Source: Bacteroidales bacterium (GTDB lineage Bacteria > Bacteroidota > Bacteroidia > Bacteroidales > JAIPAP01). Taken from it: 44,806 nt of DNA. The DNA lies in NCBI GenBank assembly GCA_021740045.1, contig JAIPAP010000018.1:1-44806 (forward strand), read 5' to 3'. The translations under genes and the position numbers were made by a program. Position 1 is the stretch's first letter, and each line of letters begins with the position of its first letter. This document shows positions 18,447 to 42,552 of the stretch, piece after piece. The notes beneath the pieces are model-generated. The model had not been told where the DNA came from and did not search any database. It saw nothing but the letters and a program-made list of their open reading frames with translations.

Positions 18447-19115
18447 ATGTCTGTATCAACTGATAATTTTTTAAAAGCTGTTTATCAACTTCATAGCGAT
18501 AAGCATCAAAAAGCAGTAAGCGCCCGGCTGGTGGAACGGCTTAACGTTTCGGGTGCAGCCATTACCGATATGGCTAAGCATTTGGCGCAAAAAGGATTAA
18601 TCGAATACGAACCTTACAAGGAACTCCGGTTGACTAACAAAGGGAGAGAGAAAGCGCTGGCGGTGGTCCGAAAACACCGGTTATGGGAAACATTCCTCGT
18701 ACAGGTTTTGCAAATTCCTTGGGAAAAAGTGCACGGCGAAGCCGAACGTCTCGAGCATCAAACTTCCGATTATCTTATTGATAAAATCGATGAGTTTTTG
18801 GATTATCCGAAGCTTGATCCCCACGGTGACCCAATTCCTGATGTTAAGGGAGAGATGGATGAAACTATTAATGAGATGGTTCTCATCGCCGGAAAATCAG
18901 ATGCTGATTTTATCATTACACGGGTACAACATCATGATGAAGATTTGATGGAATTCTACAATAAACACAACATTCGACCGGGCAAGGGGCTGAGAGTGAT
19001 CAGTAAAATGGATAAGTTTGGTTTTATCTCCGTAGAAATGAATGGAAGCACAATAGCACTGCCCGAAAAGATTGCCCGTAGTCTGTATGTTAAACCCATA
19101 GCAAAAAACCCATGA
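18447..19115 (+). CDS. DtxR/MntR/IdeR-type metal-dependent transcriptional repressor
   Basis: TDNFLKAVYQLHSDKHQKAVSARLVERLNVSGAAITDMAKHLAQKGLIEYEPYKELRLTNKGREKALAVVRKHRLWETFL; HGEAERLEHQTSDYLIDKIDEFL; C-terminal FeoA/SH3-like region. Confidence 0.96.
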   Translation: MSVSTDNFLKAVYQLHSDKHQKAVSARLVERLNVSGAAITDMAKHLAQKGLIEYEPYKELRLTNKGREKALAVVRKHRLWETFLVQVLQIPWEKVHGEAERLEHQTSDYLIDKIDEFLDYPKLDPHGDPIPDVKGEMDETINEMVLIAGKSDADFIITRVQHHDEDLMEFYNKHNIRPGKGLRVISKMDKFGFISVEMNGSTIALPEKIARSLYVKPIAKNP

Positions 19116-19891
19116 AGAGCCTTAAGCACATAATATTGTTAATTGGAATTTATGCCTGTTCCGTGTCGGTTTATGCGCAGAAAGATGGCACCCCGGAAAT
19201 GGTAACCGACCGGCCTGATCAATCGGAATCTTCAATGGTTTTGCCAAAGGGCTTTTTACAGGCCGAGACAGGTTTCATTCATGAAAAAACCTCTGAACTG
19301 GTTGATAATACCAATTATCATTCAACGCTTCTGCGCTACGGATTGCTCGATAACCTGGAGCTGCGATTGGGTAATGAGTACTTAAGGTCTTCCCGTGAAC
19401 TGGCACAGGGCGACACAACCGTTCAGGGATTAACCCCACTTACCCTTGGGACGAAAATCTTTATTTCCGAAGAAAACGGAATTATCCCTGAATTAGCATT
19501 TTTGGCCGGAGTTGCATTGCCTTACATTGGCCGGGAGGAATTTACCCCCAATCATATTGCTCCGTCAATGAGAATAGCCGCTACGCATACCATAAGCGAT
19601 CTTTTCTCACTGGGATGGAATTTCGGTGGTGAATGGAGCGGTGAGAACTCGGAAACATCCGGTTTTTATTCCGGGGTGCTGGGAATTGGCGTGACTGATA
19701 AGATTGGCGCATATGTTGAGCTTTACGGCTTTTTGCCCGAAGATCATAAGCCCGATCACCGGTTTGATGCCGGCCTTACTTACCAGGTTAGAGGGAACTT
19801 GCAACTTGATCTATCCGGAGGATTGGGTGTGAATGAAATGGCGCCCGATGGGTTTTACAGCTTTGGTATCTCATATCGTATGCCAAATTAA
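19112..19891 (+). CDS. Outer-membrane beta-barrel protein (phenol-degradation meta-pathway/'transporter' type)
   Basis: Signal peptide ending VYAQ; MVTDRPDQSESSMVLPKGFLQAETGF; alternating amphipathic strands; ATGA overlap with the regulator. Confidence 0.8.
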   Translation: MKSLKHIILLIGIYACSVSVYAQKDGTPEMVTDRPDQSESSMVLPKGFLQAETGFIHEKTSELVDNTNYHSTLLRYGLLDNLELRLGNEYLRSSRELAQGDTTVQGLTPLTLGTKIFISEENGIIPELAFLAGVALPYIGREEFTPNHIAPSMRIAATHTISDLFSLGWNFGGEWSGENSETSGFYSGVLGIGVTDKIGAYVELYGFLPEDHKPDHRFDAGLTYQVRGNLQLDLSGGLGVNEMAPDGFYSFGISYRMPN

Positions 19892-19916
19892 TAATTGATA
19901 ACAAAGAAATAGAAAT

Positions 19917-20849
19917 ATGAAAACAATAAAACTATTCATGCTTGCTTTTACGGCTATTACCATCTTAAGCTCTTGTGGTTCGCAAAGGGGGGAAGAAGAG
20001 AACGGCAAGATCAACATTGTTGCAACTACAACTATTGTTGCCGATTTGATGAAAAATGTCGGGGGCAGCAAGGTTAATGTTACCGCATTAATGGGTCCTG
20101 GCGTCGATCCACACCTTTATAAAGCCAGTGAAGGCGATGTAACCCGTTTATCCCGGGCGGACATGGTCTTTTATAATGGCTTGCACCTTGAAGGAAAAAT
20201 GGTGGATGTACTCGAAAAGCTGGAACATGGCGGCAAAGAAGTAGTGGCAGTGGCTAAGGCGGTAAATGAGGACAAACTTATCGGCTCCACCGAATATGCT
20301 TCGAGCTATGATCCACATATTTGGTTTAATATCAATTTGTGGCAAAAAGCAGCAGCCTATACTGCCCAGGAACTTGGTAAAGCCTATCCGGAGCATAAAG
20401 CGGCTTTTGAAAAAAATGCCGAAACATTTAACAGGAAGTTAGATACGTTAAAACAGTTTTCCCATTCAAAAATCAATCAACTCAATCCACAGCAACGTGT
20501 TTTGGTAACCGCTCACGATGCCTTTAACTATTTTGGGCAACAATATGATTTTAAAGTGGTGGGGTTGCAGGGCATCAGTACAAGTTCCGAGGCCGGTGTG
20601 AAAGACGTTCAGAATCTGGCCGATTTCATTTATAAGCGAAAGATCGGGGCTATTTTTATTGAATCATCGGTTCCGGAACGTAATATAAAGGCCTTGCAGG
20701 AAGCGGTGAAGGCAAAAGGTTTTCATACTAAAATAGGCGGTGAATTATATTCCGATGCATTAGGCTCGCCCGGAACCGGGGAGGGAACCTATCTCGGGAT
20801 GTACAGGCATAATATTAACACCATTGTTGATGCATTAATGTTGGAATAG
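19917..20849 (+). CDS. Metal ABC transporter substrate-binding lipoprotein (TroA/ZnuA/MntA class)
   Basis: LSSCGSQR lipobox; ATTTIVADLMKNVGG, GPGVDPHLYKAS, YDPHIWFN, VTAHDAFNYF, GELYSDALG ligand regions. Confidence 0.95.
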   Translation: MKTIKLFMLAFTAITILSSCGSQRGEEENGKINIVATTTIVADLMKNVGGSKVNVTALMGPGVDPHLYKASEGDVTRLSRADMVFYNGLHLEGKMVDVLEKLEHGGKEVVAVAKAVNEDKLIGSTEYASSYDPHIWFNINLWQKAAAYTAQELGKAYPEHKAAFEKNAETFNRKLDTLKQFSHSKINQLNPQQRVLVTAHDAFNYFGQQYDFKVVGLQGISTSSEAGVKDVQNLADFIYKRKIGAIFIESSVPERNIKALQEAVKAKGFHTKIGGELYSDALGSPGTGEGTYLGMYRHNINTIVDALMLE

Positions 20850-20851
20850 AT

Positions 20852-21595
20852 ATGCAAACGAATGCAGTAGAAATTAATGACCTTACGGTTTCGTACCGCT
20901 ATAAACCGGTGCTTTGGGATATCGACCTTGATATTCCCGAAGGGGTGCTTATGGCCATTGTTGGGCCGAACGGTGCAGGAAAATCAACACTTATCAAAAC
21001 CATTTTGGGCATTGTTAAACCGGTGGCCGGAAGCATCAAGATATACGGTAAGCCCTATCACCAAAACCGCTCAAAAGTTGCATACGTACCCCAACGGGGC
21101 ACTGTGGATTGGGATTTTCCTACAACCGTACTTGATGTGGTATTGATGGGTACTTACGGAAAATTGGGATGGATTAAGCGACCCGGAAAAAAGCAAAAAG
21201 AAAAATCGTTGGCCGCTTTGAAGGAGGTAAAAATGCATGACTTTGCCAACCGGCAGATCAGTCAGCTATCGGGTGGCCAACAACAGCGGGTGTTTCTTGC
21301 CCGCGCACTGGTGCAGGATGCCCAGATCTATTTTATGGATGAACCTTTACAGGGCGTTGATGCCGTTACCGAAAAAGCAGTGATCAATATTCTGAAAGAA
21401 TTGAAAAATGAAAACAAAACCGTTGTGGTGGTGCATCACGATCTTTCAACGGTTCCCGATTATTTTGATTGGGTTACCTTTCTCAATGTCCGCCGCATTG
21501 CAAGCGGTAAGGTTATGACGGTGTTTAACGATGCGAATCTCGAGAAAACATACGGTAGCAGTTTCAGAACTTTAAAGGGATATACTACGGCATAG
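20852..21595 (+). CDS. Metal ABC transporter ATP-binding protein (TroB class)
   Basis: VGPNGAGKSTL Walker A, LSGGQQQRVFLARAL signature, IYFMDEPLQGVD Walker B. Confidence 0.97.
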   Translation: MQTNAVEINDLTVSYRYKPVLWDIDLDIPEGVLMAIVGPNGAGKSTLIKTILGIVKPVAGSIKIYGKPYHQNRSKVAYVPQRGTVDWDFPTTVLDVVLMGTYGKLGWIKRPGKKQKEKSLAALKEVKMHDFANRQISQLSGGQQQRVFLARALVQDAQIYFMDEPLQGVDAVTEKAVINILKELKNENKTVVVVHHDLSTVPDYFDWVTFLNVRRIASGKVMTVFNDANLEKTYGSSFRTLKGYTTA

Positions 21596-21604
21596 GGGGC
21601 TGAA

Positions 21605-22738
21605 ATGGAATTCATTGATTTTTTCATTGATTTGTTTACCGATTATACCACGCGTACTATAGGTATTGGAACAGCTATATTGGGTATTGTGAGCGGGGTA
21701 TTGGGTAGTTATGCCGTGCTTCGGCAGCAAAGCTTGCTGGGTGATGCTATCTCCCATGCTACTCTGCCAGGCATTGCAATAGCATTCCTGATTATCGGTA
21801 CCAAAAGCACCGCTTTTTTCTTTTTGGGTGCTGCCGTAGCCGGATGGGCAGGAACTATGTGGATCCGGGGGATCGTTCAAAATACCCGTATTAAAAGCGA
21901 TAGCGCATTGGGCTTGGTGCTTTCCGTATTCTTTGGCTTTGGAATGGTGCTTTTAACCTTTATCCAAAAAATGCCCAATGCCAATCAGGCCGGATTGGAA
22001 ACATTCCTGTTTGGGCAAGCTGCAACACTTATTCATACCGATGTTATTTTGATGGCTATCATCGGGGCGTTTTCCCTTTTTGCCGTTATCTTGTTGTGGA
22101 AGGAATTTAAAATATTGACCTTCGATCCGCAGTACGCTGCTACTCTTGGGTTCAACACCAAATTACTCGACATCATCCTGATCTTCATAATTGTGCTGGC
22201 TATCGTGCTGGGCTTGCAAGCTGTAGGTGTGGTGTTGATGAGCGCCATGCTTCTTGCGCCTGCTGCTGCGGCTCGCCAATGGACGGACAGCCTGTCGATA
22301 ATGATCTTATTGGCGGCCCTTTTCGGTGCCTTGGCAGGGTTAACCGGAACAGCCATCAGCAGTGCAGCTATGAATCTATCAACAGGGCCGGTTATTGTTT
22401 TGGTTTCCATTGCCTTTGTGTTTATTTCATTCATGTTCGCCCCGAACCGCGGGCTTTTATTCAGGGAGATACGGAAACAAGCCAATAAAAAGGAAATGCG
22501 GATGAATCATGTGCTCGAGAACATGTATTGGATTGCCCTGGGTCACGAAAATCTGCAACACCCTCATTCCAATGCCATCTTGAATAAAACACTGGGGTAT
22601 TCCAAAAAGTGTATGCGCGAGCTAAGGGATAAGCATTTGATCGAGCTGAATGAGGATTACGATTGGAACCTTACAGAAAAAGGCATTAAAAGAGCTAAGG
22701 AAGTATACACAGATAATAATAAGAACGAACAACAATGA
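21605..22738 (+). CDS. Metal ABC transporter permease (TroC class) with C-terminal winged-helix-like tail
   Basis: ABC-3 motifs GDAISHATLPGIAIAFLI, VLMSAMLLAPAAAARQWTDSL; C-terminal MRMNHVLENMYWIALGHENLQHPHSNAILNKTLGYSKKCMRELRDKHLIELNEDYDWNLTEKGIKRAKEVY. Confidence 0.95.
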   Translation: MEFIDFFIDLFTDYTTRTIGIGTAILGIVSGVLGSYAVLRQQSLLGDAISHATLPGIAIAFLIIGTKSTAFFFLGAAVAGWAGTMWIRGIVQNTRIKSDSALGLVLSVFFGFGMVLLTFIQKMPNANQAGLETFLFGQAATLIHTDVILMAIIGAFSLFAVILLWKEFKILTFDPQYAATLGFNTKLLDIILIFIIVLAIVLGLQAVGVVLMSAMLLAPAAAARQWTDSLSIMILLAALFGALAGLTGTAISSAAMNLSTGPVIVLVSIAFVFISFMFAPNRGLLFREIRKQANKKEMRMNHVLENMYWIALGHENLQHPHSNAILNKTLGYSKKCMRELRDKHLIELNEDYDWNLTEKGIKRAKEVYTDNNKNEQQ

Positions 22739-23907
22739 GTGTTGCTCAACTGGAAATACAGATCATAGCCGTAATTGTGGCCATTGCTTGTGCCTTGCCG
22801 GGTGTTTTCCTGGTTTTGCGCAAGCGGGCCATGATCAGCGATGCTATCAGTCATGCTATATTGCCGGGGATTGTTATCGGCTTTTTTCTTACCGGGGACC
22901 TATCCTCTCCATTTCTGGTGTTACTTGCAGCAGCTACAGGAGTGCTTACCGTTAGTTTGGTGGAAGTAATCGACCGCACCGGGCTGGTTAAGGAAGACAC
23001 CTCTATCGGGCTTGTTTTTCCCGCCCTGTTTAGCATAGGGGTTATCCTCATATCAAGGTATGCCGGTGATGTTCACCTCGACACGGGTGCTGTTTTGCTG
23101 GGTGAGCTTGCTTTTGCTCCTTTCGACAGGCTTATTATTAACGGCATTGACATGGGCCCTAAAGCACTGTATGTGATGGGAGGTATATTACTGATCAATT
23201 TCCTGTTCATTAGTGTATTTTTTAAAGAGTTAAAGATCAGTACTTTTGATGTTGGCCTTGCTACAACCTTAGGCTTTACGCCAATGGTGCTCCATTATCT
23301 TTTAATGAGCATTGTTTCGATAACAGCAGTAGGTGCATTCGATGCCGTAGGCTCTATTCTGGTTGTTGCCCTCATGATCGTTCCCGCAGCAACGGCTTAC
23401 CTCTTAACCGATGATTTAAGAACCTTGCTGATACTCTCCGGGCTTGCCGGCCTCATCTCAGCTTTGGCCGGGTATTGGATAGCGCACTGGCTGGATGCTT
23501 CCATTGCAGGATCTATGGCCACGGTAGTGGGGCTGCTATTTCTGCTTACTTATCTTTTTGCACCGGGAAGAGGCATTTACTTTATCATCAGAAGGCGTAA
23601 ACGTCAGAAATACGAGTTTGCCCAAATGACCCTAACGGTGCATATCATGAACCACAGCGGTGAGTATGATAATATTGAAGAAAGGCGTATGGATCACTTT
23701 CAGCATCACTTTAACTGGGACCTGGAGCAAGCCAGAACAATTGTAAAACAAGCCCTTAGAAATAAATTCATTCAGCTGGATGGCGATCTAATCTCCCTGA
23801 CCAATAGGGGGCTGCGATTCGCCAGGGCTTCCCAGTCATTGATAATGGCCGAAAAAGACCCTAATATCAATGAGTTTAGAAAACAATTTGTAACGTTCAA
23901 TGAGTAA
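22735..23907 (+). CDS. Metal ABC transporter permease (TroD class) with C-terminal winged-helix-like tail
   Basis: DAISHAILPGIVIGFFL, ILVVALMIVPAATAYLLTDDL; tail MNHSGEYDNIEERRMDHFQHHFNWDLEQARTIVKQALRNKFIQLDGDLISLTNRGLRFARAS. ATGA overlap with the preceding gene. Confidence 0.95.
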   Translation: MSVAQLEIQIIAVIVAIACALPGVFLVLRKRAMISDAISHAILPGIVIGFFLTGDLSSPFLVLLAAATGVLTVSLVEVIDRTGLVKEDTSIGLVFPALFSIGVILISRYAGDVHLDTGAVLLGELAFAPFDRLIINGIDMGPKALYVMGGILLINFLFISVFFKELKISTFDVGLATTLGFTPMVLHYLLMSIVSITAVGAFDAVGSILVVALMIVPAATAYLLTDDLRTLLILSGLAGLISALAGYWIAHWLDASIAGSMATVVGLLFLLTYLFAPGRGIYFIIRRRKRQKYEFAQMTLTVHIMNHSGEYDNIEERRMDHFQHHFNWDLEQARTIVKQALRNKFIQLDGDLISLTNRGLRFARASQSLIMAEKDPNINEFRKQFVTFNE

Positions 23908-24028: not shown

Positions 24029-24535
24029 ATGAAAAAGATCGGTTTATTTTACGGTGGAACCAGTAAGGGAAGCACCTATAAAGTAGCGAAAAAGATACAG
24101 GAAGCATTGGGTAAGGAAAATGTAGATTTGCACGATATTGCAAAGTCAAGCAAAACAGATATAGAAAAATATACCAACCTGATATTTGGGACCTCAGCTT
24201 GGGGCGTGGGCGACATGCACCGCGACTGGGAAGGATTCATAGATGAATTTGTCGAAGTTGATTTTTCGGATAAAATAGTTGCTCTGTTTGGACTGGGCGA
24301 TCAGAAAAATTATCCCGAAAGTTACCTCGATGGAACAGGGACCATTTTCTGCCGCCTGCCGAATAAGGAAAACGTAATTGGTTTCTGGCCTACCGAAGGA
24401 TATACTTATTACTATTCATCGGCTGAAAAAGATGGGAAATTTGTTGGTTTAGCCATTGATGAAGATACCCAGCCCGATAAAACCGATGACCGGATCAAGC
24501 AATGGGTAGAGCAGATAAAAGATAAGTTCAAATAA
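24029..24535 (+). CDS. Flavodoxin
   Basis: Start moved to MKKIGLFYGGTSKGSTYKVAKKI; IFGTSAWGVGDMHRDWEGF, VALFGLGDQKNYPESYLDG, GFWPTEGYTYYYSSA. Confidence 0.95.
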   Translation: MKKIGLFYGGTSKGSTYKVAKKIQEALGKENVDLHDIAKSSKTDIEKYTNLIFGTSAWGVGDMHRDWEGFIDEFVEVDFSDKIVALFGLGDQKNYPESYLDGTGTIFCRLPNKENVIGFWPTEGYTYYYSSAEKDGKFVGLAIDEDTQPDKTDDRIKQWVEQIKDKFK

Positions 24536-24663
24536 AATCATAGGTGTAGAAAACATTTTTTTCATCTGGGATTATCCTGTAAGGTGAGGTTACGCCAATT
24601 TCTGTTTGCGATACCAGGCGGTTATTGAAGGTTTATGAACAAAATTTTGGGCAAAATTGAAGT

Positions 24664-24690
24664 TATATATCGATATATATATTACCTTTG
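24664..24690 (+). promoter_or_regulatory. 16-bp perfect palindrome TATATATCGATATATA followed by TACCTTTG (-7-like box)
   Basis: Directly read; TAnnTTTG consensus at 24683-24690 with a TTG 23 bp upstream (24657-24659). Confidence 0.5.
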
Positions 24691-24732
24691 TTATTCGAAA
24701 AACGATAAAATGAACTGATGAAACGTCCATGA

Positions 24733-24772
24733 GCAAATAATCATTATCTTAAACACGGAAATGATTATTTGC
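24733..24772 (+). promoter_or_regulatory. Leader hairpin: perfect 13-bp inverted repeat GCAAATAATCATT / AATGATTATTTGC with a 14-nt loop
   Basis: Directly read in the 5' leader of the small-protein/HmuY/TonB gene set. Confidence 0.7.
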
Positions 24773-24837
24773 GAATGGTAAGTTCCCTGTCTGACGAACA
24801 GGCAGGCATCTGACCATTGAAAATAAAAAATGAACAG

Positions 24838-25206
24838 ATGAAATTGGCCAATAAGTTCCATAAGTATCTTTTGCTTACCACAGCTACAGCATTGTGCTGG
24901 GTGTTTGTGGGGTCACTGGTTAATTTTCATCAACATCAGCTTTTCGGTAAAACCCTCCTCTATAAATTACAACCCTATTTACTACCTTCTAAGGAGCACA
25001 GTAAAAAGGACCATTTTGAAGCAGCCCCGGATAATGGTTTCGACCATTCCGCTGTTAGCATTAGTCCATTTGCCTTAGCCGAAGAACATCAATACCTTAT
25101 TCAACTGCCGGTTTTGGCAATGGAACGTGATCATTATTACTTTTCACTCAACCTTGATGAAGCATGTTATTTGCTTCAGCTCAGGGGACCTCCTGCTTTA
25201 GCCTAA
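24838..25206 (+). CDS. Small single-TM or signal-peptide, His-rich exported protein of unknown function
   Basis: Track start at 24817 is TTG; ATG at 24838 gives MKLANKFHKYLLLTTATALCWVFVGSLVNFHQHQ...; ends EACYLLQLRGPPALA. Confidence 0.7.
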   Translation: MKLANKFHKYLLLTTATALCWVFVGSLVNFHQHQLFGKTLLYKLQPYLLPSKEHSKKDHFEAAPDNGFDHSAVSISPFALAEEHQYLIQLPVLAMERDHYYFSLNLDEACYLLQLRGPPALA

Positions 25207-25340
25207 GCGCTCAAAAGGCTTAAATATCATTTTCGGTAATTTCCGGTGTTAAGAGCCAAAATTCCATTGAGGGAGTTTTGCTAAAACATATGGAAACTAA
25301 AAAAATCAATCAATTATTAATTTTTAAAAAGTTACTGTAT

Positions 25341-26606
25341 ATGAAGATCAATACTACTATTTTGATGATGGTTGTGTTTACCATATCTTTTATAACATTA
25401 AATTCAAACCGGGCTGTGGCCTATATACAATCCGAAGAAGACTCGGTGATTATGGGCTCCAATTACGCCAATGATGTATATTATAACCTGGAAAGCGGGG
25501 AAGTTGGCACGGCTAACCGCACCAACTGGGATGTTGCTTTTTCCACTCAACAAATGAGTGTGAGCATCCTCACCAATGGTGGCGCCGGAACAGCATTGTA
25601 TACCTACCCCAAGGACGATACTGCCGGTTGGAACAGTGTGGATACCACGGGGCTTCATGAATGGAAGGCCCAATACAACTCAAAGGAGGAATGGGCTATC
25701 GGCGCTTTCAATCGCAATGCCCTTGGCCATCCCGATTATGGATGGGGCATGTATAACATCAACACGCATAATGTAACCGGCGATTCATTGTTCATTATTC
25801 AGCTCTCGAATGGAAGCTATATGAAAATGTGGATGGAGATGAAGAACTCTATCGCCAACACCTATCATTTTCGATATGCAGCCCTGGATGGGAGCAATGA
25901 GCAAAATGTGGAAGTAAACGCCAATAATTTCACAGGCAATTATGCTTACTATTCGCTGCAAAACCAGGAAACTGTCGACCGGGAGCCGGAGGAAAATTGG
26001 CATTTGTTATTTACAAAATATGCTGCCGCCATTAATATGGGTGCCGAAGTGGTTCATTATCCGGTTACCGGCGTATTGGTAAATGCCGGCGTAGAAGTGG
26101 CTGAAGTGACCGGTGTGGAGCAGGAATCGTATAACGACTGGGGCGCCCATGCCTTTGCCACCGCTATTGCTGAAATTGGCTACGATTGGAAAGAATTTAA
26201 TGATAACACCTTTCAGTACGAAGTGCTCGATTCACTTGTGTACTTTGTTAAAGACACTTTAGGCAACGTTCATAAGCTGTACTTTACCGGATTTGAAAGC
26301 GGCACTTCCGGTAATGGAAAAGTTGTATTTAACCTTGAAACAATATCCGCCACCGGTACAGAGGAACTTGAGGCCGATGAGATGCTCAACCTATACCCCA
26401 ATCCAGCTAATAACCAGGTGAACCTTCAATTAAGTACAGAAGATGCAACCATCAGTGTTTTTGATGTTACAGGCCGGATGGTTTACCAAACAAAAGGTGA
26501 TAACCATGTTAAGATCAACACCAATGATTGGCAGAGCGGCCTTTATATCCTGAAAATCGATAACGAACAACGGACCATAACGCGTAAGTTGATCATTGAC
26601 AAATAA
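25341..26606 (+). CDS. Secreted HmuY-like protein with T9SS type A C-terminal sorting domain
   Basis: ATG at 25341 starts a signal peptide; two HmuY-like halves (DVYYNLESGEVGTANRTNWDVAFST and YYSLQNQETVDREPEENWHLLFTKY); tail LNLYPNPANNQVNL...GLYILKIDNEQRTITRKLIID. Confidence 0.85.
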   Translation: MKINTTILMMVVFTISFITLNSNRAVAYIQSEEDSVIMGSNYANDVYYNLESGEVGTANRTNWDVAFSTQQMSVSILTNGGAGTALYTYPKDDTAGWNSVDTTGLHEWKAQYNSKEEWAIGAFNRNALGHPDYGWGMYNINTHNVTGDSLFIIQLSNGSYMKMWMEMKNSIANTYHFRYAALDGSNEQNVEVNANNFTGNYAYYSLQNQETVDREPEENWHLLFTKYAAAINMGAEVVHYPVTGVLVNAGVEVAEVTGVEQESYNDWGAHAFATAIAEIGYDWKEFNDNTFQYEVLDSLVYFVKDTLGNVHKLYFTGFESGTSGNGKVVFNLETISATGTEELEADEMLNLYPNPANNQVNLQLSTEDATISVFDVTGRMVYQTKGDNHVKINTNDWQSGLYILKIDNEQRTITRKLIIDK

Positions 26607-26608
26607 AA

Positions 26609-28831
26609 ATGCTAAAATATACGGTTAAATTATTTTTGGTCATCAGCCTGTTGGCTTTTACCTCGCGAGGTTTAAGCCAGCAGGTTTCTTTTAAGCTGGT
26701 CGATAAAAAAAGTAAACAGCCTGTTGCTTATGCCCATGTTTTACTTGAAGGAATTGACAAGGCGTTCAACAAGCAACTGATAACTGATGTTAACGGAAAA
26801 GTTTCAACCAAAATTAGCGGAAAAGCTAAAGTTACTGTTTCGTATGTGGGCTACCGGACATTAACCGATACCATAAAACCGACCCGGAAAAACCTTGTAT
26901 TTGAATTAACTCCCGATATACTTGAAGTTAGCGAGGTGGTTGTCACCGGGCAATATACACCCCAGCGTGTAGACCAATCCATTTACAAAGTTGATGTCAT
27001 CGGTAAGCGCGACATCGATGAAGTGGCTGCTGAAAATCTTTCGGGTTTGCTGGAAAAGCGCTTAAACATCAAAACTTCTTATGACGGTGCTCTGGGCTCC
27101 AGCCTGAGCTTACAAGGCCTCTCGGGCCAGCATGTGAAATTTCTCATCGATGGCGTTCCCGTGATCGGGCGAATGAACGGTAATATCGACCTGGAACAGC
27201 TTAACATGTACAATGTCGATCATATTGAAGTTGTTGAAGGGCCCATGTCAGTGATCTATGGAAGCAATGCCCTGGCCGGTGTTATTAATATCATTACCGA
27301 AGATGGTACCGATGGAAAAGTCGCGGCTAATGTGGATGCGTATTATGAATCGGTGGGTAAATATAACCTGAATGCCAAGACTTCCTACCGGACCGATGAT
27401 CATAATATCGCCCTTAGCGGGGGAAGGCATTTTTTTGATGGCCATCCCGAAACCGGCCAACGCAACCAGTTTTATAAACCAAAACGGCAATATAATGTGC
27501 AGGCCAATTATATTTATAACCCCGGCACCGATTTTAAATTAAAATACAATGGTCGCTTTTTTGATGAAAAAATACTTGACCGTGGCGCTTTGCTGGAACC
27601 TTATTATGAAACAGCGTTTGATAAATATTTCACCACTTCGCGCCTTACCAATGATATTAACCTGAAGACACGCTTTTTTAGTGATCACTATTTTGATTTC
27701 CAGGCATCATATTCAACATACGACAGGAAAAAGAAAACCTACTTTAAAGACCTCACCACCTTGGAGCAAGTTGTAACCGATGACCCCGAAGATCATGATA
27801 CCACTCGGTTTGACGCCTACAGGGGACGGGGAACCTTTACACTCTCCGATGAAAAGCGAAATATGAATTACCAGTTGGGTTTTGACCTGAATTATGAAAC
27901 CGGCAGTGGTAAAAGAATAGAAGGCGAGGAAAAACGTATTGGGGATTATGCCGGATTTTTCAGCTTTAAATACAAACCAACCGGTGAGTTAATACTCCAG
28001 CCGGGCATTCGTTATAACTACAACACCAAGTATAATGCGCCATTGGTTTATTCCCTCAATGTAAAATATGATATTATCGATAAAATGACATTCCGGGCTT
28101 CTTATGCCAAAGGATTCAGGGCTCCTTCGCTAAAAGAGCTTTACCTGTTTTTTGTCGACATCAATCATAACATCAGGGGCAACGAAGACCTTAAGGCCGA
28201 GCACTCCAAAAACATTAATTTCAGCCTTAACTATACCCATCAATGGGAAAAGCTAAGCGGAAAATTCGAAGCCGGAGGGTTTCATAATAACATTCGCAAC
28301 ATAATCACCCTGGCCCGTGAAAGCGGTGACTTATATACCTACATTAATGTGGACCAATATTTGACCAAGGGTATTTTCCTGAAAACAAACTGGTATTTTG
28401 ATTCCGGATTAAAATTTAACGCAGGGGTAACCTATACCGGGCGTTATAACCGGTTTACCACCGATGAGCAAGTGCGGGAATTTGCCTACAGTACTGATGT
28501 TACCTCAGGCCTCTCTTATAACTGGGTGAAGAAAGATGTTAATTTTTCAGTCAACTATAAATATACCGGTGAAGTTCCTGAATTTTATGTTGAAGACGAG
28601 CAAGTTAAGGAAGGATTTGTTGCTGATTATCATAATCTCGATTTCACGGCCATCAAGCATTTCTTTAATCGAAATATGCATTTGTCGGCCGGGGTGAAAA
28701 ATATATTCAACAACACCACTATCCCGGCAGTTGGCGGAACCGGAAGCGTTCATGCCGGGGACTCGGGAAGTATACCCATAGGCTGGGGAAGAACTTATTT
28801 TATTGGATTATCGTACGATTTTAAGAAATGA
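26609..28831 (+). CDS. TonB-dependent outer-membrane receptor with N-terminal carboxypeptidase-like domain
   Basis: Plug VSEVVVTGQYTPQRVDQSIYKVDVIG...FLIDGVPVIGRMNGNIDLEQLNMYNVDHIEVVEGPMSVIYGSNALAGVINIIT; barrel end YFIGLSYDFKK. Confidence 0.96.
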   Translation: MLKYTVKLFLVISLLAFTSRGLSQQVSFKLVDKKSKQPVAYAHVLLEGIDKAFNKQLITDVNGKVSTKISGKAKVTVSYVGYRTLTDTIKPTRKNLVFELTPDILEVSEVVVTGQYTPQRVDQSIYKVDVIGKRDIDEVAAENLSGLLEKRLNIKTSYDGALGSSLSLQGLSGQHVKFLIDGVPVIGRMNGNIDLEQLNMYNVDHIEVVEGPMSVIYGSNALAGVINIITEDGTDGKVAANVDAYYESVGKYNLNAKTSYRTDDHNIALSGGRHFFDGHPETGQRNQFYKPKRQYNVQANYIYNPGTDFKLKYNGRFFDEKILDRGALLEPYYETAFDKYFTTSRLTNDINLKTRFFSDHYFDFQASYSTYDRKKKTYFKDLTTLEQVVTDDPEDHDTTRFDAYRGRGTFTLSDEKRNMNYQLGFDLNYETGSGKRIEGEEKRIGDYAGFFSFKYKPTGELILQPGIRYNYNTKYNAPLVYSLNVKYDIIDKMTFRASYAKGFRAPSLKELYLFFVDINHNIRGNEDLKAEHSKNINFSLNYTHQWEKLSGKFEAGGFHNNIRNIITLARESGDLYTYINVDQYLTKGIFLKTNWYFDSGLKFNAGVTYTGRYNRFTTDEQVREFAYSTDVTSGLSYNWVKKDVNFSVNYKYTGEVPEFYVEDEQVKEGFVADYHNLDFTAIKHFFNRNMHLSAGVKNIFNNTTIPAVGGTGSVHAGDSGSIPIGWGRTYFIGLSYDFKK

Positions 28832-29832
28832 AGATCAAAAACCTCAACATACTTTATTTTTTAGCCTTGATGCTGCTAACAGCTTGTTTCAAAGAAGATG
28901 AACGGGTGGAGCCGCACAAATCGGGCGATCTTAAGCTTGCTTCGGTGGCTATGGAAAACGATTACCGGTACCAGGCCTATTTTGAACTGCAAACCGGAAA
29001 AGTGGTGAAAAAGCATTTGAAAACCTCATGGGATCTTGCTTTTGAGAATGCGCCTGAAGGCGATAAGATAGTGCTGAACGCTTCCCTTTTCATGATGGCT
29101 GCTAAAACACAAAAGCAGGGCATACAATCGCCGGTAGATACCACCGGCTTACAATGGCATTACGATGCTGCCAGTGGCAACACCGATTCATTGGCCATTG
29201 ATAACTGGTATTCCGTGAATGCCGGGGATACAATCTTGAGCAAACAACTTTTTATAATCGACCGGGGGCTTGACTTGCAGGGGAAATCCCGTGGTTTCAG
29301 GCAGTTGGTGGTTTCGGGTTTCGGTAAGAGGTATTATGAAATTACCCATGCCAAAATGGATGGCAATGATAAAAAAACTGTAAAACTTGATAGGGACACC
29401 TCCCGCACTTATACGTATTTTTCATTTGAAAACTCCAATGAAAACCTACCGGCACCTCCACCTAAAAATAACTGGGATTTGTTGTTTACCCAATACACCA
29501 AGCTATTGTATACCGATGAAGGTGAACCCTATCCATACCTGGTTACCGGGGTTCTCTTAAATCAACACAAAGTGATGGCTGCTGAGGTTACAAGCGATTT
29601 TGAAAACATCACCCTTGAATATGCCCAGGGGATTTCTTACACTGATGTTAACGATGTTATCGGTTATGACTGGAAGACTTATGACTTTGATGCCGGAAGT
29701 TATACGGTTGACCCGGACAAAATCTTTTTGATCAAGGGCGCCGAAGGGTTTTACTACAAGCTCAGGTTTGTGGGTTTCTACAGTAATACCGGTGAAAAAG
29801 GTCATCCCACTTTTGAATATAGGCAACTGTAA
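28828..29832 (+). CDS. HmuY-like lipoprotein
   Basis: LMLLTACFKEDE lipobox; YQAYFELQTGKVVKKHLKTSWDLAFEN and YTYFSFENSNENLPAPPPKNNWDLLFTQY; ATGA overlap with the receptor gene. Confidence 0.83.
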   Translation: MKIKNLNILYFLALMLLTACFKEDERVEPHKSGDLKLASVAMENDYRYQAYFELQTGKVVKKHLKTSWDLAFENAPEGDKIVLNASLFMMAAKTQKQGIQSPVDTTGLQWHYDAASGNTDSLAIDNWYSVNAGDTILSKQLFIIDRGLDLQGKSRGFRQLVVSGFGKRYYEITHAKMDGNDKKTVKLDRDTSRTYTYFSFENSNENLPAPPPKNNWDLLFTQYTKLLYTDEGEPYPYLVTGVLLNQHKVMAAEVTSDFENITLEYAQGISYTDVNDVIGYDWKTYDFDAGSYTVDPDKIFLIKGAEGFYYKLRFVGFYSNTGEKGHPTFEYRQL

Positions 29833-29934: not shown

Positions 29935-31737
29935 ATGAATATTTTGGATTTAAAACAATTACGGTTAATTCTTCTGCTGATGATTCCTGCCCTGTGGTTC
30001 AAGGTGGGGTGTGCCCAGGAACCAGTTAAAATTACGGCAGATGAACTCCAATCGCACATCACTTACCTGGCTTCCGGAGAACTTAAGGGGCGTAAACCCG
30101 GAACGCCCGGCGGTAAAAAGGCGGCTGAATACGTCCGGGATCAGTTTGACCAATACGGTTTGGTTTTACCCGCCAATAATGGCTTTCAGTCATTCAAGGT
30201 GGTAACCGGGGTTACGGCCGGCGAGGGGAATAATTTCCGGTTTAATGATTTTAACGGGGAGCTTAAGAAAGATTTTATCCCCCTTTCGTTTTCCGATAAT
30301 GATACCTTAACCGCAGGGGTTGTATTTGCCGGTTACGGTTTCAATATCGAAACCGATACCCTCACATGGCAAAGCTACCAAAACATCGATGTAGCCGGTA
30401 AATGGGCAATGGTATTACGGGGCGACCCCGAGCTGGATGATCCGGAGAGCATTTTTATAGAACACAGTACCGAGCGCATCAAAGCACTTAATGCCAAAGA
30501 TTACGGTGCCGCCGGGATCATTATGGTCACGCCTCATGAAATGGAGGACAAAGATAAATTGCTGGACATGTACTATGATAAAACCGCCAGCGATGCGGGT
30601 ATCCCGGTCATCAACATCACACGGGAAGTGGCTGATAAGATGCTGGCAGCTAATCATAAAACAGTAAAAGAATTGGAGCAAAAGCTCAACAAAACCCGCA
30701 AGCCGCATACATTCGAATTGCCTGTTGATCTCACGGCGTCAACACATGTGGAATTGGAGAAAGCCACCACCCAAAATGTGGTCGGAATTCTTCATGGACA
30801 GGATGAGCTGCTGCGGGATCAATATATAGTGGTAGGAGCTCATTATGATCACCTGGGAATGGGTGGACCCGGAAGTGGTTCCCGCATGCCCGATACAGTG
30901 GCACCACATTATGGCGCCGATGATAATGCCTCGGGGGTGGCAACAGTCCTGGAACTGGCCCAGCAGTTTTCGGCCGATACAGCTACACCAAAAAGGAGCA
31001 TGGTATTTATTGCTTTCGGAGGGGAAGAAATGGGGCTGTTAGGGTCCAAATATTTCATCAATAGTGGATTGATCGACAAGGACCAGATTAATACCATGAT
31101 GAACTTCGATATGGTGGGCCGCCTGGATAAGGAAGACAAAATACTGTCGGTGGGAGGTACGGGTACCGCCGATAGAATTGCCTCTATTTTGGATGAATTT
31201 GCCAAAGAAATGCCATTTAAAATAGAGAAATCAAAAGAAGGTTACGGGCCTTCGGATCATGCCGCATTTTACGCCGAAGATGTGCCGGTAATTTTTTTAA
31301 CAACAGGTCCGCATAGCGATTATCATACCCCGAAAGATAAAATTTCAGAAATCGATTTTTCAAGCCAGGAGCGGATTACAGAGTATGCTTACAAAATTCT
31401 TACCAAAATAAACAATATGGAAAATCCATTGGCGTTCAAAAGATCAGGCGTTAAGGCCAGGTCGAAATACGGAAGACGGTTTAAAGTAACGCTTGGCATA
31501 ATTCCTGATGTAACATCAAGTAAGAATAACGGGCTTGGTGTTGACGGAGTAAGAGAAGGAGGCCCCGCTGACCGGGGTGGTATGAAAAAAGGCGATCGTA
31601 TCATCTCGATGAACGGGGAAGAAGTCAGCAACATTTACGACTACATGGGTCGGCTTCAAAAACTGAAAGAAGGAGAGACGGCTACTGTAGAAGTAATGAG
31701 AAACGGAAAAAAGGAAATTTTGCTTATTCAATTATAA
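29935..31737 (+). CDS. M28 family metallopeptidase with PA-like insert and C-terminal PDZ domain
   Basis: VGAHYDHLGMGGPGSG, PHYGADDNASGVATVLELA, FIAFGGEEMGLLGSKYF; GVDGVREGGPADRGGMKKGDRIISMNGEEVSNIYDYM PDZ. Confidence 0.95.
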   Translation: MNILDLKQLRLILLLMIPALWFKVGCAQEPVKITADELQSHITYLASGELKGRKPGTPGGKKAAEYVRDQFDQYGLVLPANNGFQSFKVVTGVTAGEGNNFRFNDFNGELKKDFIPLSFSDNDTLTAGVVFAGYGFNIETDTLTWQSYQNIDVAGKWAMVLRGDPELDDPESIFIEHSTERIKALNAKDYGAAGIIMVTPHEMEDKDKLLDMYYDKTASDAGIPVINITREVADKMLAANHKTVKELEQKLNKTRKPHTFELPVDLTASTHVELEKATTQNVVGILHGQDELLRDQYIVVGAHYDHLGMGGPGSGSRMPDTVAPHYGADDNASGVATVLELAQQFSADTATPKRSMVFIAFGGEEMGLLGSKYFINSGLIDKDQINTMMNFDMVGRLDKEDKILSVGGTGTADRIASILDEFAKEMPFKIEKSKEGYGPSDHAAFYAEDVPVIFLTTGPHSDYHTPKDKISEIDFSSQERITEYAYKILTKINNMENPLAFKRSGVKARSKYGRRFKVTLGIIPDVTSSKNNGLGVDGVREGGPADRGGMKKGDRIISMNGEEVSNIYDYMGRLQKLKEGETATVEVMRNGKKEILLIQL

Positions 31738-33975: not shown

Positions 33976-35886
33976 TTATTCAACAATCATCTTACGGGTC
34001 ATTTCTTTATCACCTGAAGTAACGGTGTAGAAATAAACGCCTGATGAAAGCTCGCCTGCATTAATGGTCATCTTATGGGTGCCTGCGTTAAGTGCACGGC
34101 TGGTTTCCATAACACGCTGACCGGTCATGCTGTAAACAGCAATATTAACGTTGGCATCTTTTTCAAGGGTAACATCAACATTGGTTAAGCCGCTAACCGG
34201 GTTGGGATAATTCGCCGAAACATTGAAAGCTGAGCCACCGATGATGGTTTCTTCAACGCCTACGTAATCATCTTTTGGTACGGAAGCAAAGATGATCTTG
34301 TTCATGGTATAAGCATCTTCGTCACCACGTACTGCCAGCCCGGGTTCTTCGTCGGCCTGATAGCTAAAGTGGATGTCTTCGGTGCTTGTAGCAGCAACAG
34401 ACGGGAACACACATTCATCAAAGGTATGTACCGGTGATTCGGTCAACCAGGCGAAATCCTCACGCCAGGTGGTGCCGCCATCAGGCGATGCCGTGGCAAA
34501 CAACTGACGGTAGTTTTGGTTTTGAGTTGCACGTTCTTCACATACTGCTGAGAAAACAATGGAGATGGTATTGTTTTCATCAACCACAATTTGTGGCATA
34601 CTGGCCGGGCCTAAATAATAGGTGCCAATGCCATCAATTTCGGGATTTACCAGGTCGTCCACCCAGGTACCGTTACCGTTCAAGTCGGGGACCCAGCCAA
34701 TGAGGTTGTGCAGGTATTCCATTTCCGAATCAGGATCACTTCCGGTATAAGGGCTCAATGCATCCACATTGTCGGAGAATGATTCACGGTCTTCGTTCCA
34801 GTAGCCAATACCTTCAACAAAGGGGAACCAACTGGGGCCTGCGGCACCATCTTCGTACATGGCCCTGTTAATACCAAACGTCACATGAATTTTACCGTTG
34901 GCATCATAAGCGCCGTGGAATGATCCGTCAACACAATAGAATGTATCGGTAGGTGTTGGGTTATTCGGGTCCCACATCGGATATGGGTGTTCCCAGATAA
35001 CGGTTTTTTCCCAGGTCTCACCGCCGTCGTGTGATTGCATCAGCATAAAATCAACCCAGTTATCACCAACCAAGAAGGCAATGTCATCACCTTCGGAGTC
35101 GATCCAGGCATAAGTGTCACCACTAAAGCCGGCGTAATAATCGGAGCTGATACCGTCGATAATACGATGTTCATCTTCCCAGGTTTGTCCACCGTCGGTT
35201 GAGCGGTAATAAAGCAAAGCGCCGTCAAGGTCCTCATAAGGTGATCCCTGGTTAGCGATGGGAGGTGTAAGGGCTAAAATGTGAATCGCTTCGTTATTTT
35301 CACCGGCAGTGATCATGCGGGGCCAAAGGATGTCTTCATGGCCTTCGGGACCGGGCAGGAATGTTTCTGTCCAATCGCCTGTACCCTTTTCGGGGCGGTT
35401 GCTGATAACCAAACCGTCAGCGCCACCGCTGTGTGTAACAACAATTTCACCGTTCTCACCCCATTTGTCATATGAAGGCCAGCCATTACGGGTGCTTTCA
35501 ATACGCTCAGTCGGGTAGGGTCCCCATTCGGAACCGTCGTAATAGTTATAACCGGTACCACGGCCGGGGAAACCTGTCGCGTCTTCAAAACCCATGATCC
35601 ATGTTGAAGCTGCCGTACCATCGTCATAAAATACCGTACGGTTTTGGGTACAAGCATTGCTTTGGAGGTCGTACTTGGTTTCTCCGATTTGTGTTTCCGA
35701 GGGTGTAAATCCGCTTTTCACAAAAGGATTTACGGCTTCTTTAAGGTTAGTGGGGTTGTCAACAGCTCGCATGTCGGGAACCGCAATGTTGCGGTATTCT
35801 TTAGGAGCCGGAGCGAATTCCTGGGCTATAAGGCTTGTTGTAAAGAACAAGGCAAAAGCCAAGAGTAGAGTTCTTGTTCGTTTCAT
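33976..35886 (-). CDS. T9SS type A sorting domain protein, Asp-box/sialidase-like propeller, subfamily A
   Basis: STDGGQTWEDE, SHDGGETWEKT, SPDGGTTWRED Asp-box motifs; C-terminal YPNPVSGLTNVDV...SSGVYFYTVTSGDKEMTRKMIVE. Confidence 0.85.
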   Translation of the reverse strand: MKRTRTLLLAFALFFTTSLIAQEFAPAPKEYRNIAVPDMRAVDNPTNLKEAVNPFVKSGFTPSETQIGETKYDLQSNACTQNRTVFYDDGTAASTWIMGFEDATGFPGRGTGYNYYDGSEWGPYPTERIESTRNGWPSYDKWGENGEIVVTHSGGADGLVISNRPEKGTGDWTETFLPGPEGHEDILWPRMITAGENNEAIHILALTPPIANQGSPYEDLDGALLYYRSTDGGQTWEDEHRIIDGISSDYYAGFSGDTYAWIDSEGDDIAFLVGDNWVDFMLMQSHDGGETWEKTVIWEHPYPMWDPNNPTPTDTFYCVDGSFHGAYDANGKIHVTFGINRAMYEDGAAGPSWFPFVEGIGYWNEDRESFSDNVDALSPYTGSDPDSEMEYLHNLIGWVPDLNGNGTWVDDLVNPEIDGIGTYYLGPASMPQIVVDENNTISIVFSAVCEERATQNQNYRQLFATASPDGGTTWREDFAWLTESPVHTFDECVFPSVAATSTEDIHFSYQADEEPGLAVRGDEDAYTMNKIIFASVPKDDYVGVEETIIGGSAFNVSANYPNPVSGLTNVDVTLEKDANVNIAVYSMTGQRVMETSRALNAGTHKMTINAGELSSGVYFYTVTSGDKEMTRKMIVE

Positions 35887-36008
35887 AATTCATCGATTTT
35901 ATTAGTTAAACTTAGTATAGCTAGCTCATTCTAGTAGCCGCCAAATTTAATAAAAAATTTTAAGTGCGGGATGGGATGAAAAAAAATCATCAATTTTATA
36001 AAACCTGT

Positions 36009-36042
36009 AAAAAACCCCTCCCGAAATCTTCAGGAGGGGTTT
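36009..36042 (-). terminator. Hairpin terminator downstream of T9SS protein gene 2
   Basis: AAACCCCTCC...GGAGGGGTTT; minus-strand reading ends in a T run. Confidence 0.85.
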
Positions 36043-36094
36043 GTGGTTTATTATGGCTTATTAATATCGCAAGCCATAACTATTAAAACTGATT

Positions 36095-38077
36095 CTACTT
36101 TACGGTCATTTTCCGGGTGATGGTTTCCTCACCGGCTTCTATGCTATAGAAGTATACGCCCGGTGTTAGTTTACTTCCATCAATAATGAATTGATGGAGG
36201 CCATTCACCATGCCGGCGTCTTCCGTTTGAATGATTTGTCCGGTGACGCTAAAAAGCTGTAATTGAACAGGCACCGCTTTGTCGGTGGTTACTTCTATCG
36301 TAGTCTTTCCGCGGAATGGGTTGGGGTAATTCTGTGAAACATTGATATCCGATGCTACTGTCACAGGTTCACTCATGCCGACTCCATCGGGGAATGGATG
36401 AACAAAATCGCCCTCGGTTAACGTAAAGTCCTGGATATACATGTAAGTAACCTGTTTAGTCGGGTCATTCGGATCCATGTCTTCATAGGTAAATGGAATT
36501 GTATACTGATCATTGTCAGTAAACATATAATGCGGGGCAGCAAAGAAATAAGCCTGAAGCCAGGCAACGGTAGCTTCGGTAACGTTGAGGGTGTCCGTAA
36601 AGGTGCGAGCAACCATATCAAGGCCTACGCAGCGGATATCGGGCATATTATTGGTTTCGCTGAAGCCGGGATCGGTCTCCTGCCAGGAGATCAGCACTTT
36701 TTCGCCATTCATGGTAGTGGTTGCCTGAATACGGTTATCTTCGGTAAGGTCACCGTATTCACCCCTGAAATTAGCCAGTTTTTTCAGATCAAGGCCGGTC
36801 CATGTAAGAGCCCCGTCAGTTGACCAGATGTCAAAAGCAGCAAAGGTATAAGGTTCGGTCACAATAGAATAGGGATTAGCTCCTGCAACACCTACTACAA
36901 CACCAATGTGGGGATTACCGGTATGATCGACCACCAGGTCGAAATCAAATGCTGTGGTATAAAGGATTTCATCACGGTCGGGTATCGGTGGCTCGAAAAG
37001 CGATTCTATTTGCTGATCGGTTAGATATTGCTTTACCCTGTGAATACCATCTTCACCGCCTAGTTGGATTCCTCCCATGTATTCCCAGTCATCACCGCCA
37101 TTGGTGGTTTTAAATACGATGGGGTAAATGGCACCGGCCGAAAAATCAACCGATTCGTCATTTGAAAGCAACACCATGTAACCAATTTCCCCGTCAGGGC
37201 CAAAGGCTACTTTTTCGTTCATCACGTAGTAAAGGTCTTCATCATGGATTACTTCAAATTCCATCAGTTCAGCTTCGTAGGTAATGTCGCCTTCTTCTTC
37301 ATCGAAAGTGCCCTTATTCACGATCAGGTTATCGGTGTAGTTCAGGCTTCCTGATGTCCAGTCATCGGCCGGATCAACCACCCAAGCCACACCGTCTTGC
37401 GTTACCGTATAAGCCTCGGGGATGTATTGATACATACCTTCATCGGGATTAGCAGGCCGGGTATGCTTGGTAGTGTCGGCATGATCGACCAAATTGGCCG
37501 TGCCATAGCCATAACCGCCCCAGGTATCAGGTGAATTGGAGCCATCGAGAATTGGCCCGAAAAAAAATAAGTAAGCATTAGCAGGGTCAAGGTTCCCCAC
37601 CGGGTTGTAAATGGCTCCGTGCGGATAGCGGATCGCATCCACATTGTAATTGGGCCCCGGTTCGTTGGATTCATACACCATAATGTTGTTTTCGAAAGTC
37701 TGGCCCATGTCCAGTGAGAGGTCCATCGCAAGGTTACCCGAGTAAGTTTCGGATGTCATGCGGTGGGTGTTGGTTACAGCATTCAGGTGATCATCCACCC
37801 AAAGGATGGTCTTTTGGCCACCGCCGTATCCATAGCTATAAGCATTGGCCGATTGTCCTATGGCAAAGATGTTTAATTGCTGTGCACCTTTGGTCCGTTC
37901 AGGGACTGCATAGGTTGAAGAAGTAATCGGTGTGGGTTTGCTTACACTTTCGATGGCCACTGCCTGCTCAGGATTATGCACGGCAGTTTGCAAGCCATTT
38001 TGTAAGCTTGAATTTTGCTGGGCATAAATTGTTACAACCAGCATTAGTGAAACGGTTAACAGTACAAACTTTTTCAT
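36095..38077 (-). CDS. T9SS type A sorting domain protein, subfamily B
   Basis: Signal peptide; YGYGGGQKTILWVDDHLNAVTNTHRM; TTNGGDDWEYMGG; YPNPFRGKTTIEV...PGVYFYSIEAGEETITRKMTVK. Confidence 0.85.
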   Translation of the reverse strand: MKKFVLLTVSLMLVVTIYAQQNSSLQNGLQTAVHNPEQAVAIESVSKPTPITSSTYAVPERTKGAQQLNIFAIGQSANAYSYGYGGGQKTILWVDDHLNAVTNTHRMTSETYSGNLAMDLSLDMGQTFENNIMVYESNEPGPNYNVDAIRYPHGAIYNPVGNLDPANAYLFFFGPILDGSNSPDTWGGYGYGTANLVDHADTTKHTRPANPDEGMYQYIPEAYTVTQDGVAWVVDPADDWTSGSLNYTDNLIVNKGTFDEEEGDITYEAELMEFEVIHDEDLYYVMNEKVAFGPDGEIGYMVLLSNDESVDFSAGAIYPIVFKTTNGGDDWEYMGGIQLGGEDGIHRVKQYLTDQQIESLFEPPIPDRDEILYTTAFDFDLVVDHTGNPHIGVVVGVAGANPYSIVTEPYTFAAFDIWSTDGALTWTGLDLKKLANFRGEYGDLTEDNRIQATTTMNGEKVLISWQETDPGFSETNNMPDIRCVGLDMVARTFTDTLNVTEATVAWLQAYFFAAPHYMFTDNDQYTIPFTYEDMDPNDPTKQVTYMYIQDFTLTEGDFVHPFPDGVGMSEPVTVASDINVSQNYPNPFRGKTTIEVTTDKAVPVQLQLFSVTGQIIQTEDAGMVNGLHQFIIDGSKLTPGVYFYSIEAGEETITRKMTVK

Positions 38078-38221
38078 GATCGGATTTTTTAGGTTAACTC
38101 AATAAATATTTGGTTTTAGCCGCGACAAGATATGAAAAAGATATAAATTATACAAGTAGTCATTTAAAATGCAATTGATTAGTTAATTAAAAGTACTGCT
38201 ATGCCTGATTCCTAGTGGTAT

Positions 38222-42511: not shown

Positions 42512-42552
42512 AACGCTTAAATTTTAATGAATAATTGGTTAACTAGATTGAT

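Follow-up and report, generated by a model that had tools for sequence, protein, structure and literature searches.

What is taken up, and how is the uptake controlled, when two HmuY-like proteins with different routes to the cell surface are encoded on either side of a single TonB-dependent receptor? This arrangement is found in a contig of a Bacteroidales bacterium (JAIPAP010000018.1, assembly GCA_021740045.1), analyzed here over 44,806 nucleotides (forward strand, hereafter the window). Four genes follow one another: a small leader open reading frame (ORF), a gene for an HmuY-like protein with a sorting domain of the type IX secretion system (T9SS), a receptor gene, and a gene for an HmuY-like lipoprotein (Table 1). 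Our results indicate that the whole set is probably a haem-acquisition operon under nascent-chain control. The gene set is widespread in Bacteroidota and apparently undescribed.

Two tandem HmuY proteins flank one receptor

The original prediction described these genes as a small His-rich protein, a T9SS-secreted HmuY-like protein, a TonB receptor, and an HmuY-like lipoprotein. Their coordinates, order, and spacing were confirmed: 2 bp separate the T9SS-HmuY gene from the receptor gene, and the receptor and lipoprotein genes overlap in an ATGA. Both flanking proteins matched PF14064 (HmuY) above the cut-off of 27 bits (49.4 bits for the T9SS protein and 68.2 bits for the lipoprotein), with two matching stretches in each protein, and no PF14064 match was found elsewhere in the same genome. 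The family had been called correctly; the tandem two-domain nature of each protein had gone unrecognized. Neither has the single HmuY domain of the described hemophores.

Profile–profile comparison (hhalign) aligned the two domains of the T9SS protein with each other (94.9%, E 4.6e-8), and the two halves of the lipoprotein more weakly (56%, E 1.1e-4). Between the proteins, the first halves matched at 98.3% and the second halves at 99.9%. A joint tree separated 51 T9SS proteins from 51 lipoproteins with a support of 1.0. Judged from their sequences, both are tandem two-domain HmuY proteins, homologous over their full length. The half-to-half matches and the split in the joint tree therefore point to a two-domain ancestor that was duplicated once, with the copies taking different surface routes.

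The AlphaFold2 models were confident, with a mean predicted local distance difference test score (pLDDT) of 92.4 for the T9SS protein and 93.7 for the lipoprotein. In Foldseek, the ten best Protein Data Bank (PDB) matches of the lipoprotein were all HmuY-family structures (probability 0.98–1.00; next match, E 0.03), and the T9SS protein matched T9SS C-terminal domains and HmuY-family structures. A sequence-profile search of PDB chains returned HmuY-family chains exclusively, so that the proposed fold was not refuted.

The two localization calls, a T9SS tail on the first HmuY protein and a lipobox on the second, also held. The first protein is predicted to be a T9SS type A cargo: a signal peptide was recognized by reading the sequence, its C-terminal domain scored 62.5 bits against TIGR04183 (cut-off 23) and matched structure 8glk (TM-score 0.85 of the target, Foldseek), and the genome encodes the T9SS protein SprA (578 bits). 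The second is predicted to be a lipoprotein with a surface-export signal. After its lipobox Cys20 come the residues F-K-E-D-E, which fit the consensus for surface export defined in Capnocytophaga, C-X-K-(D/E)2-X (PMC5080379); C-X-[KR]-[DE]-[DE] was present in 33 of the 41 lipoprotein relatives with a recognizable lipobox.

The gene set recurs across Bacteroidota

When 40 other genomes of the order (the window's own not counted) were searched with tblastn, 8 contained the lipoprotein; profile searches recovered it from 60 of 393 genomes at the level of the order and from 38 of 396 at the level of the phylum. Scanning GTDB genomes for the T9SS protein gave 432 relatives, of which the best 80 were used. 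Removal of duplicates left 104 distinct first genes. Where upstream sequence was available, 77 had both the T9SS tail and a leader, 14 the tail only, one the leader only, and six neither. The receptor and lipoprotein genes lay directly downstream of the first gene in nearly all loci. The four-gene order is common to dozens of Bacteroidota lineages, and the co-occurrence with this receptor clade holds, as the original prediction required. Because the order repeats across many families within and beyond Bacteroidales, the arrangement is more than chance.

Two loci (L090 and L101) kept the leader, receptor, and lipoprotein and had no T9SS protein. The core of the system is therefore the receptor with the lipoprotein, and the T9SS protein is an accessory to it, not a first step that the system must have.

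Two variants were seen among the relatives. On the reverse strand of L028 (3241–12270, genome G007), the module is followed by a second TonB receptor without the box His described below, a 222-residue HmuY-like lipoprotein, and a possible PepSY-type membrane protein, which suggests an arrangement as if two haem systems had fused. In L094 (11015–13657, reverse strand), the first gene product has 880 residues and resembles a single chain made of two tandem-HmuY units of the T9SS type.

Haem is the best-supported ligand

The receptor consists of an N-terminal CarboxypepD_reg domain, a plug, and a barrel (Pfam). It carries a FRAP...H...GNEDL box, and the His in it (His520, codon at 28166–28168) was aligned with a His in all 101 receptors compared. 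A FRAP/NxxL box with His is the signature described for haem and haemoglobin receptors (PMC9331221). The receptor scored below the cut-offs of TIGR01785 (113.7 bits, cut-off 317) and TIGR01786 (115.1 bits, cut-off 324) and was assigned to no curated NCBIfam subfamily.

In Flavobacteriia-like genomes, the homologous receptor and tandem-HmuY lipoprotein genes are directly followed by genes for a periplasmic binding protein, an FecCD permease, a haem ATP-binding cassette (ABC) ATPase (NF010068, 276 bits, cut-off 261), and HemS (251 bits). In these genomes the T9SS protein gene is placed divergently. Upstream of the window's set lies fldA. Of 91 testable unique loci, 24 (the window counted in) have a same-strand homologue no more than 2 kb upstream; in Bacteroidota, fldA ranks among the genes that iron limitation induces most (PMC10434189). 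Because of the His in the FRAP/NxxL box, the haem ABC and HemS neighbourhood of the homologues, and the upstream fldA, haem, which the original prediction named beside other possible ligands, is quite likely the cargo.

The first gene ends in an arrest-type motif

The gene described as coding for a small His-rich protein is present, but its product is better read as a leader ORF of the arrest type. His accounts for 8 of 122 residues in the window and 3.8% on average across the family, with a single conserved His, and "His-rich" was rejected as a functional label. We collected 78 loci of this family and aligned first 30 and then 63 members. All share a basic N-terminus, one membrane segment with a His at its end (residue 31 in the window), a weakly conserved middle, and a C-terminal R-[GA]-[PS]-P. 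The motif was RGPP in 42 loci, RAPP in 33, and RGSP in three, with the Arg and the last Pro invariant, and the stop codon followed after 2–6 residues, most often two. The distance from the His to the Arg was 81–86 residues in 59 of 77 leaders; values above 100 reflect the search pattern picking up an earlier His. Only the membrane-proximal His, one Gly, and the last R-x-P-P were near-invariant across 63–78 sequences.

The leader is a real coding sequence under purifying selection, because the ratio of nonsynonymous to synonymous substitution rates in close pairs was mostly 0.05–0.25. It has no Pfam family, and PF11162 (DUF2946) was unmatched in the 63 members. Neither RAPP nor RGPP occurred in the long ORFs of these loci (449,162 residues). 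Of about 3,100 further small ORFs, only two non-leaders ended in R[AG]PP.

The leader as a putative sensor

Experiments have established RAPP and RGPP as arrest motifs, and SecM of Mannheimia arrests at RGSP (PMC9426467, PMC10987492, PMC12992588). In Bordetella, the RAPP motif of CruR controls a downstream TonB receptor in response to copper and by way of Rho (PMC9426467, PMC12992588); the Rho utilization (rut) site was mapped to a bubble with more C than G within the upstream ORF (uORF; PMC9426467). The gene in the window has the features of the RAPP/RGPP uORF class: a small membrane uORF, first in its operon, with R[AG]PP near the C-terminus. By analogy, it most likely codes for a regulatory nascent chain, predicted to be of the arrest type, that senses iron or haem.

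Of 69 leaders, 68 had more C than G in their final 120 nt, and so had 58 of 68 intergenic regions between leader and T9SS gene, compared with 32 of 69 upstream regions and 54 of 86 intergenic controls; the relatedness of the loci makes these counts no more than indicative. A conserved RNA hairpin was not found between the leader and the T9SS gene (mean z −0.92, compared with −0.66 in control regions), and the region therefore does not hold a CutF-like stem-loop.

The leader profile was also searched across 147 genomes. Close relatives of the leader were found in G005 and G122 (L236, 5538–12506; L237, 5232–10765, reverse). There they come first in a different operon, which encodes a siderophore-type TonB receptor, an RhtX/FptX-like major facilitator superfamily (MFS) transporter, hemN, and protoporphyrinogen oxidase, with hemH convergent; the gene families were tested on the G005 copy. 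Such a pattern suggests that one leader family underlies a haem/iron regulon. More distant relatives, also R[GA]PP leaders, carry HxH...HAHPF (L238, L239, L240, L241, L243, L244, and L245) and precede ZnuD-like or haem-like TonB receptors (one ZnuD-like); in L239, such a leader lies ahead of an OEP-HlyD-CzcA set for heavy-metal efflux. Members of this Bacteroidota branch are candidates for arrest leaders that sense zinc or copper. The operon neighbours therefore indicate that the window's branch accompanies haem and iron genes and the HAHPF branch metal genes.

The invariant His of the leader may bind haem or iron. A bolder reading, somewhat less likely than not, is a new class of nascent-chain sensors in Bacteroidota, in which the single-His branch would respond to haem or iron through R[GA]PP arrest and control haem and siderophore uptake, and the HxH...HAHPF sister branch would respond to zinc or another metal and control ZnuD-like receptors and Czc-type efflux. 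No haem- or iron-sensing arrest peptide was found in the literature searched.

A model for the operon

Both sequence and comparison support four parts of the model. The leader, a signal-anchor of about 120 residues ending in R-[GA]-[PS]-P, is translated first; the second gene gives a tandem two-domain HmuY exported by the T9SS, the third a TonB receptor of the haem/haemoglobin type, and the fourth a lipoprotein that is the tandem HmuY paralogue and bears a surface-export signal. The steps that connect them are our inference. When haem or iron is scarce, the ribosome would stall at RGPP during the passage of the leader through Sec, and the stall would keep the genes behind it expressed; the simplest mechanism would be a block of Rho-dependent termination like that of CruR in Bordetella. 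Ligand bound near the membrane-adjacent invariant His would release the stall and turn the operon down. The secreted tandem-HmuY protein would strip haem from the surroundings, the surface lipoprotein would keep it at the receptor mouth, and import through the receptor would draw on TonB energy. Haem may thus be relayed between the two HmuY binders.

If this model is true, a haem-scavenging system is common to Bacteroidota that are known mostly from metagenome-assembled genomes; its two binders, one secreted and one held at the surface, arose around a single receptor by duplication of an ancestral two-domain HmuY, and the pair offers a clean test of haem passing between binders. Export state and copper are the signals shown so far for arrest peptides; the leader would let one ask whether haem or iron is sensed in this way too, and may help to explain the post-initiation control of TonB uptake in phyla beyond Proteobacteria.

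Alternative explanations

Several observations weigh against a haem operon with a sensing leader. A leader was not detectable in 14 of the 91 tail-bearing loci, and none was seen in the Flavobacteriia-like loci. Leaders have no conserved Cys or multi-His site, which makes the sensed signal a guess, and the window's own intergenic region does not have more C than G (C 18, G 21). The Foldseek TM-scores of the HmuY proteins were modest (0.30–0.47 of the target length), because a single HmuY gets aligned across two domains. The window's T9SS protein has no Met at residue 288, where 43 of 67 relatives have one. The lipoprotein has no conserved His, and its Met residues are partly conserved (M42 in 40 of 59, M89 in 45 of 59). 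The best NCBIfam score of the receptor was for a B12 receptor family, far below its cut-off (140, cut-off 600). In the window's genome, HemS was not found, and the search for an FecCD permease gave only cross-matches to the adjacent metal-type ABC-3 permeases. Ferrochelatase is present, and the organism is therefore no obvious haem auxotroph.

Some of these points would fit a cargo other than haem, such as a siderophore, an iron-free porphyrin, cobalamin, or a metal complex, with HmuY as a general fold for hydrophobic ligands and a ZnuA/MntC-like ABC transporter as the inner-membrane partner. The B12 score of the receptor and the absence of HemS and a true FecCD permease agree with this, as do the DtxR/MntR, ZnuA-like, and ABC-3 genes upstream on the same strand; moreover, the haem ligands of HmuY proteins vary, and in some of these proteins binding does not involve coordination of the iron (PMC12106395). 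However, the metal ABC genes adjoin only 0–2 loci, the haem-receptor box has its His in every receptor compared, homologues lie ahead of haem ABC transporter and HemS genes, and the Hmu system of Porphyromonas gingivalis likewise has no adjacent classical haem ABC transporter (PMC10434189: hmuYRSTUV). We regard a non-haem cargo as unlikely. A working without any relay is a serious possibility, if a somewhat less favoured one: each HmuY would take a different ligand or niche, the secreted one as a public-good binder and the cell-bound one as the receptor's partner. The difference between the conserved putative ligands (His130, in 60 of 67, and His143, in 67 of 67, of the T9SS protein against partly conserved Met in the lipoprotein) speaks for this, and so do the two loci without the T9SS protein and its divergent placement in the Flavobacteriia-like genomes. 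On the other side are strict co-occurrence in one operon, in the window's order, and a correlation of r 0.80 between the pairwise distances of the T9SS proteins and the lipoproteins, a value that shared descent alone would also raise.

The leader, too, can be explained otherwise. As a monitor of the Sec export state like SecM or ApdP, tuning an operon of exported products, it would have the expected signal-anchor layout and the RxPP of ApdA, ApdP, and SecM (PMC7897499, PMC10987492), and the downstream products are indeed exported. But the downstream genes are not sec or yidC, the leader family tracks iron/haem and metal operons, and a monitor of export alone would have no evident use for the invariant His, so that we give this reading perhaps a minor chance. 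An ordinary inner-membrane protein that works as a finished product, such as a haem or metal chaperone or a TonB helper with RGPP as a binding motif, would account for the purifying selection on the translated leader and its one-segment membrane anchor. It is improbable given that so little besides the His, one Gly, and R-x-P-P is near-invariant, that the motif stands 2–6 residues from the stop, that RAPP and RGPP are missing from the long ORFs and avoided in proteomes (PMC12992588), and that the gene is always the first of the set where it is found. A haem-acquisition operon led by a sensing nascent chain remains our preferred reading.

Features and neighbouring genes

Table 1. Features of the four-gene locus and its immediate upstream region (window positions)
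Feature	Position	Strand	Remarks
Long-chain flavodoxin FldA	24029..24535	+	TIGR01752 197 bits, cut-off 147; linked gene, non-core
13-bp perfect inverted repeat GCAAATAATCATT / AATGATTATTTGC	24733..24772	.	5′ of leader ORF, after likely promoter
Leader ORF, 122 aa	24838..25206	+	Likely ATG start; longer TTG ORF from 24817
RGPP arrest-type motif of leader (AGG GGA CCT CCT)	25183..25194	+	3 residues ahead of stop
Intergenic, leader to T9SS gene	25207..25340	+	Possible attenuation site
T9SS-cargo tandem-HmuY gene, 421 aa	25341..26606	+	Likely ATG start, agrees with relatives
T9SS protein HmuY domain 1	25461-25832	+	PF14064
T9SS protein HmuY domain 2	25938-26321	+	PF14064
T9SS protein type A sorting domain	about 26391-26597	+	Por_Secre_tail 65.7 bits
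TonB-dependent receptor gene, 740 aa	26609..28831	+	
Tandem-HmuY lipoprotein gene, 334 aa	28828..29832	+	
Lipoprotein HmuY domains	28960-29247 and 29407-29820	+	PF14064

The 13-bp inverted repeat may be an operator or a hairpin of the 5′ untranslated region; as an element of the family it was rejected, being absent from the other loci. Fur-box-like sites were not enriched over shuffled sequences in the 300 nt upstream of the 78 leaders.

Window positions 18447–23907 encode a DtxR/MntR-type regulator with an FeoA domain, an outer-membrane protein, a ZnuA/MntC-like binding protein, an ATPase, and two ABC-3 permeases, both with C-terminal extensions of about 100 residues that look like winged-helix regulators by eye. 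This metal ABC transporter was rejected as a component of the system on account of its rarity beside the other loci. Directly downstream of the operon, at 29935–31737, lies a gene for an M28 peptidase with a PDZ domain; a homologue follows the lipoprotein gene on the same strand in 9 of 87 testable loci. Further on (33976–44418, minus strand), five successive proteins of 620–660 residues have C-termini resembling T9SS sorting tails, with weak matches to the T9SS-HmuY profile.

Comparison with known systems

A description of the module, a tandem pair around one receptor under an arrest-type leader, was not found in the literature searched, which did not take in bioRxiv preprints and most subscription papers. 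T9SS-tailed HmuY and RAPP leaders are already known; what we have not found described is the tandem-HmuY pair around one receptor under such a leader. The HmuY protein of Flavobacterium columnare (C6N29_01035; PMC9618737) likewise combines PF14064 with Por_Secre_tail and was reported to be secreted by the T9SS. A secreted HmuY alone is therefore not new, and the novelty first attached to it was overstated, although the T9SS-tailed protein itself is present in the window. The F. columnare gene is a single gene whose deletion had no growth phenotype, and a flanking receptor, a second HmuY, and a leader are not described for it.

The hmuYR(STUV) operon of P. gingivalis also joins an HmuY-family surface lipoprotein of the same fold with a TonB haem receptor. 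It has one single-domain HmuY, whereas the window has two tandem-domain HmuY proteins flanking the receptor, one of them a T9SS cargo; the window's set adds the arrest-type leader and has no hmuSTUV. HfpR/HfpY and BfpR of Flavobacterium psychrophilum (PMC9331221) and FepA-HmuY of Riemerella anatipestifer (PMC5429918) are pairs of a TonB receptor and an HmuY-related protein induced by iron limitation. HfpY binds haem 1:1, and BfpR, like the window's receptor, has the FRAP/NxxL box, a His in loop 7, and an N-terminal extension (PMC9331221). These systems have one HmuY partner, no T9SS HmuY in the described operon, and no reported leader.

For the leader, the closest likeness is CruR (DUF2946), which precedes bfrG in Bordetella pertussis (PMC9426467; arrest, PMC12992588) and is likewise a small exported R[AG]PP uORF (in CruR, RAPP) at the head of a TonB-receptor operon. 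Both have a fixed spacing between sensing motif and arrest motif and a leader end with more C than G. However, CruR responds to copper through CXXC and belongs to PF11162, whereas the window's leader has no conserved Cys, a single membrane-adjacent invariant His, and no PF11162 match. A survey of RAPP/RGPP uORFs near TonB-related genes in all Gram-negative groups (PMC12992588) describes the same motif, size, localization signal, and class of position. It does not mention HmuY, T9SS, haem, or iron, and the gene that follows the leader in the window encodes the T9SS-HmuY protein rather than the receptor.

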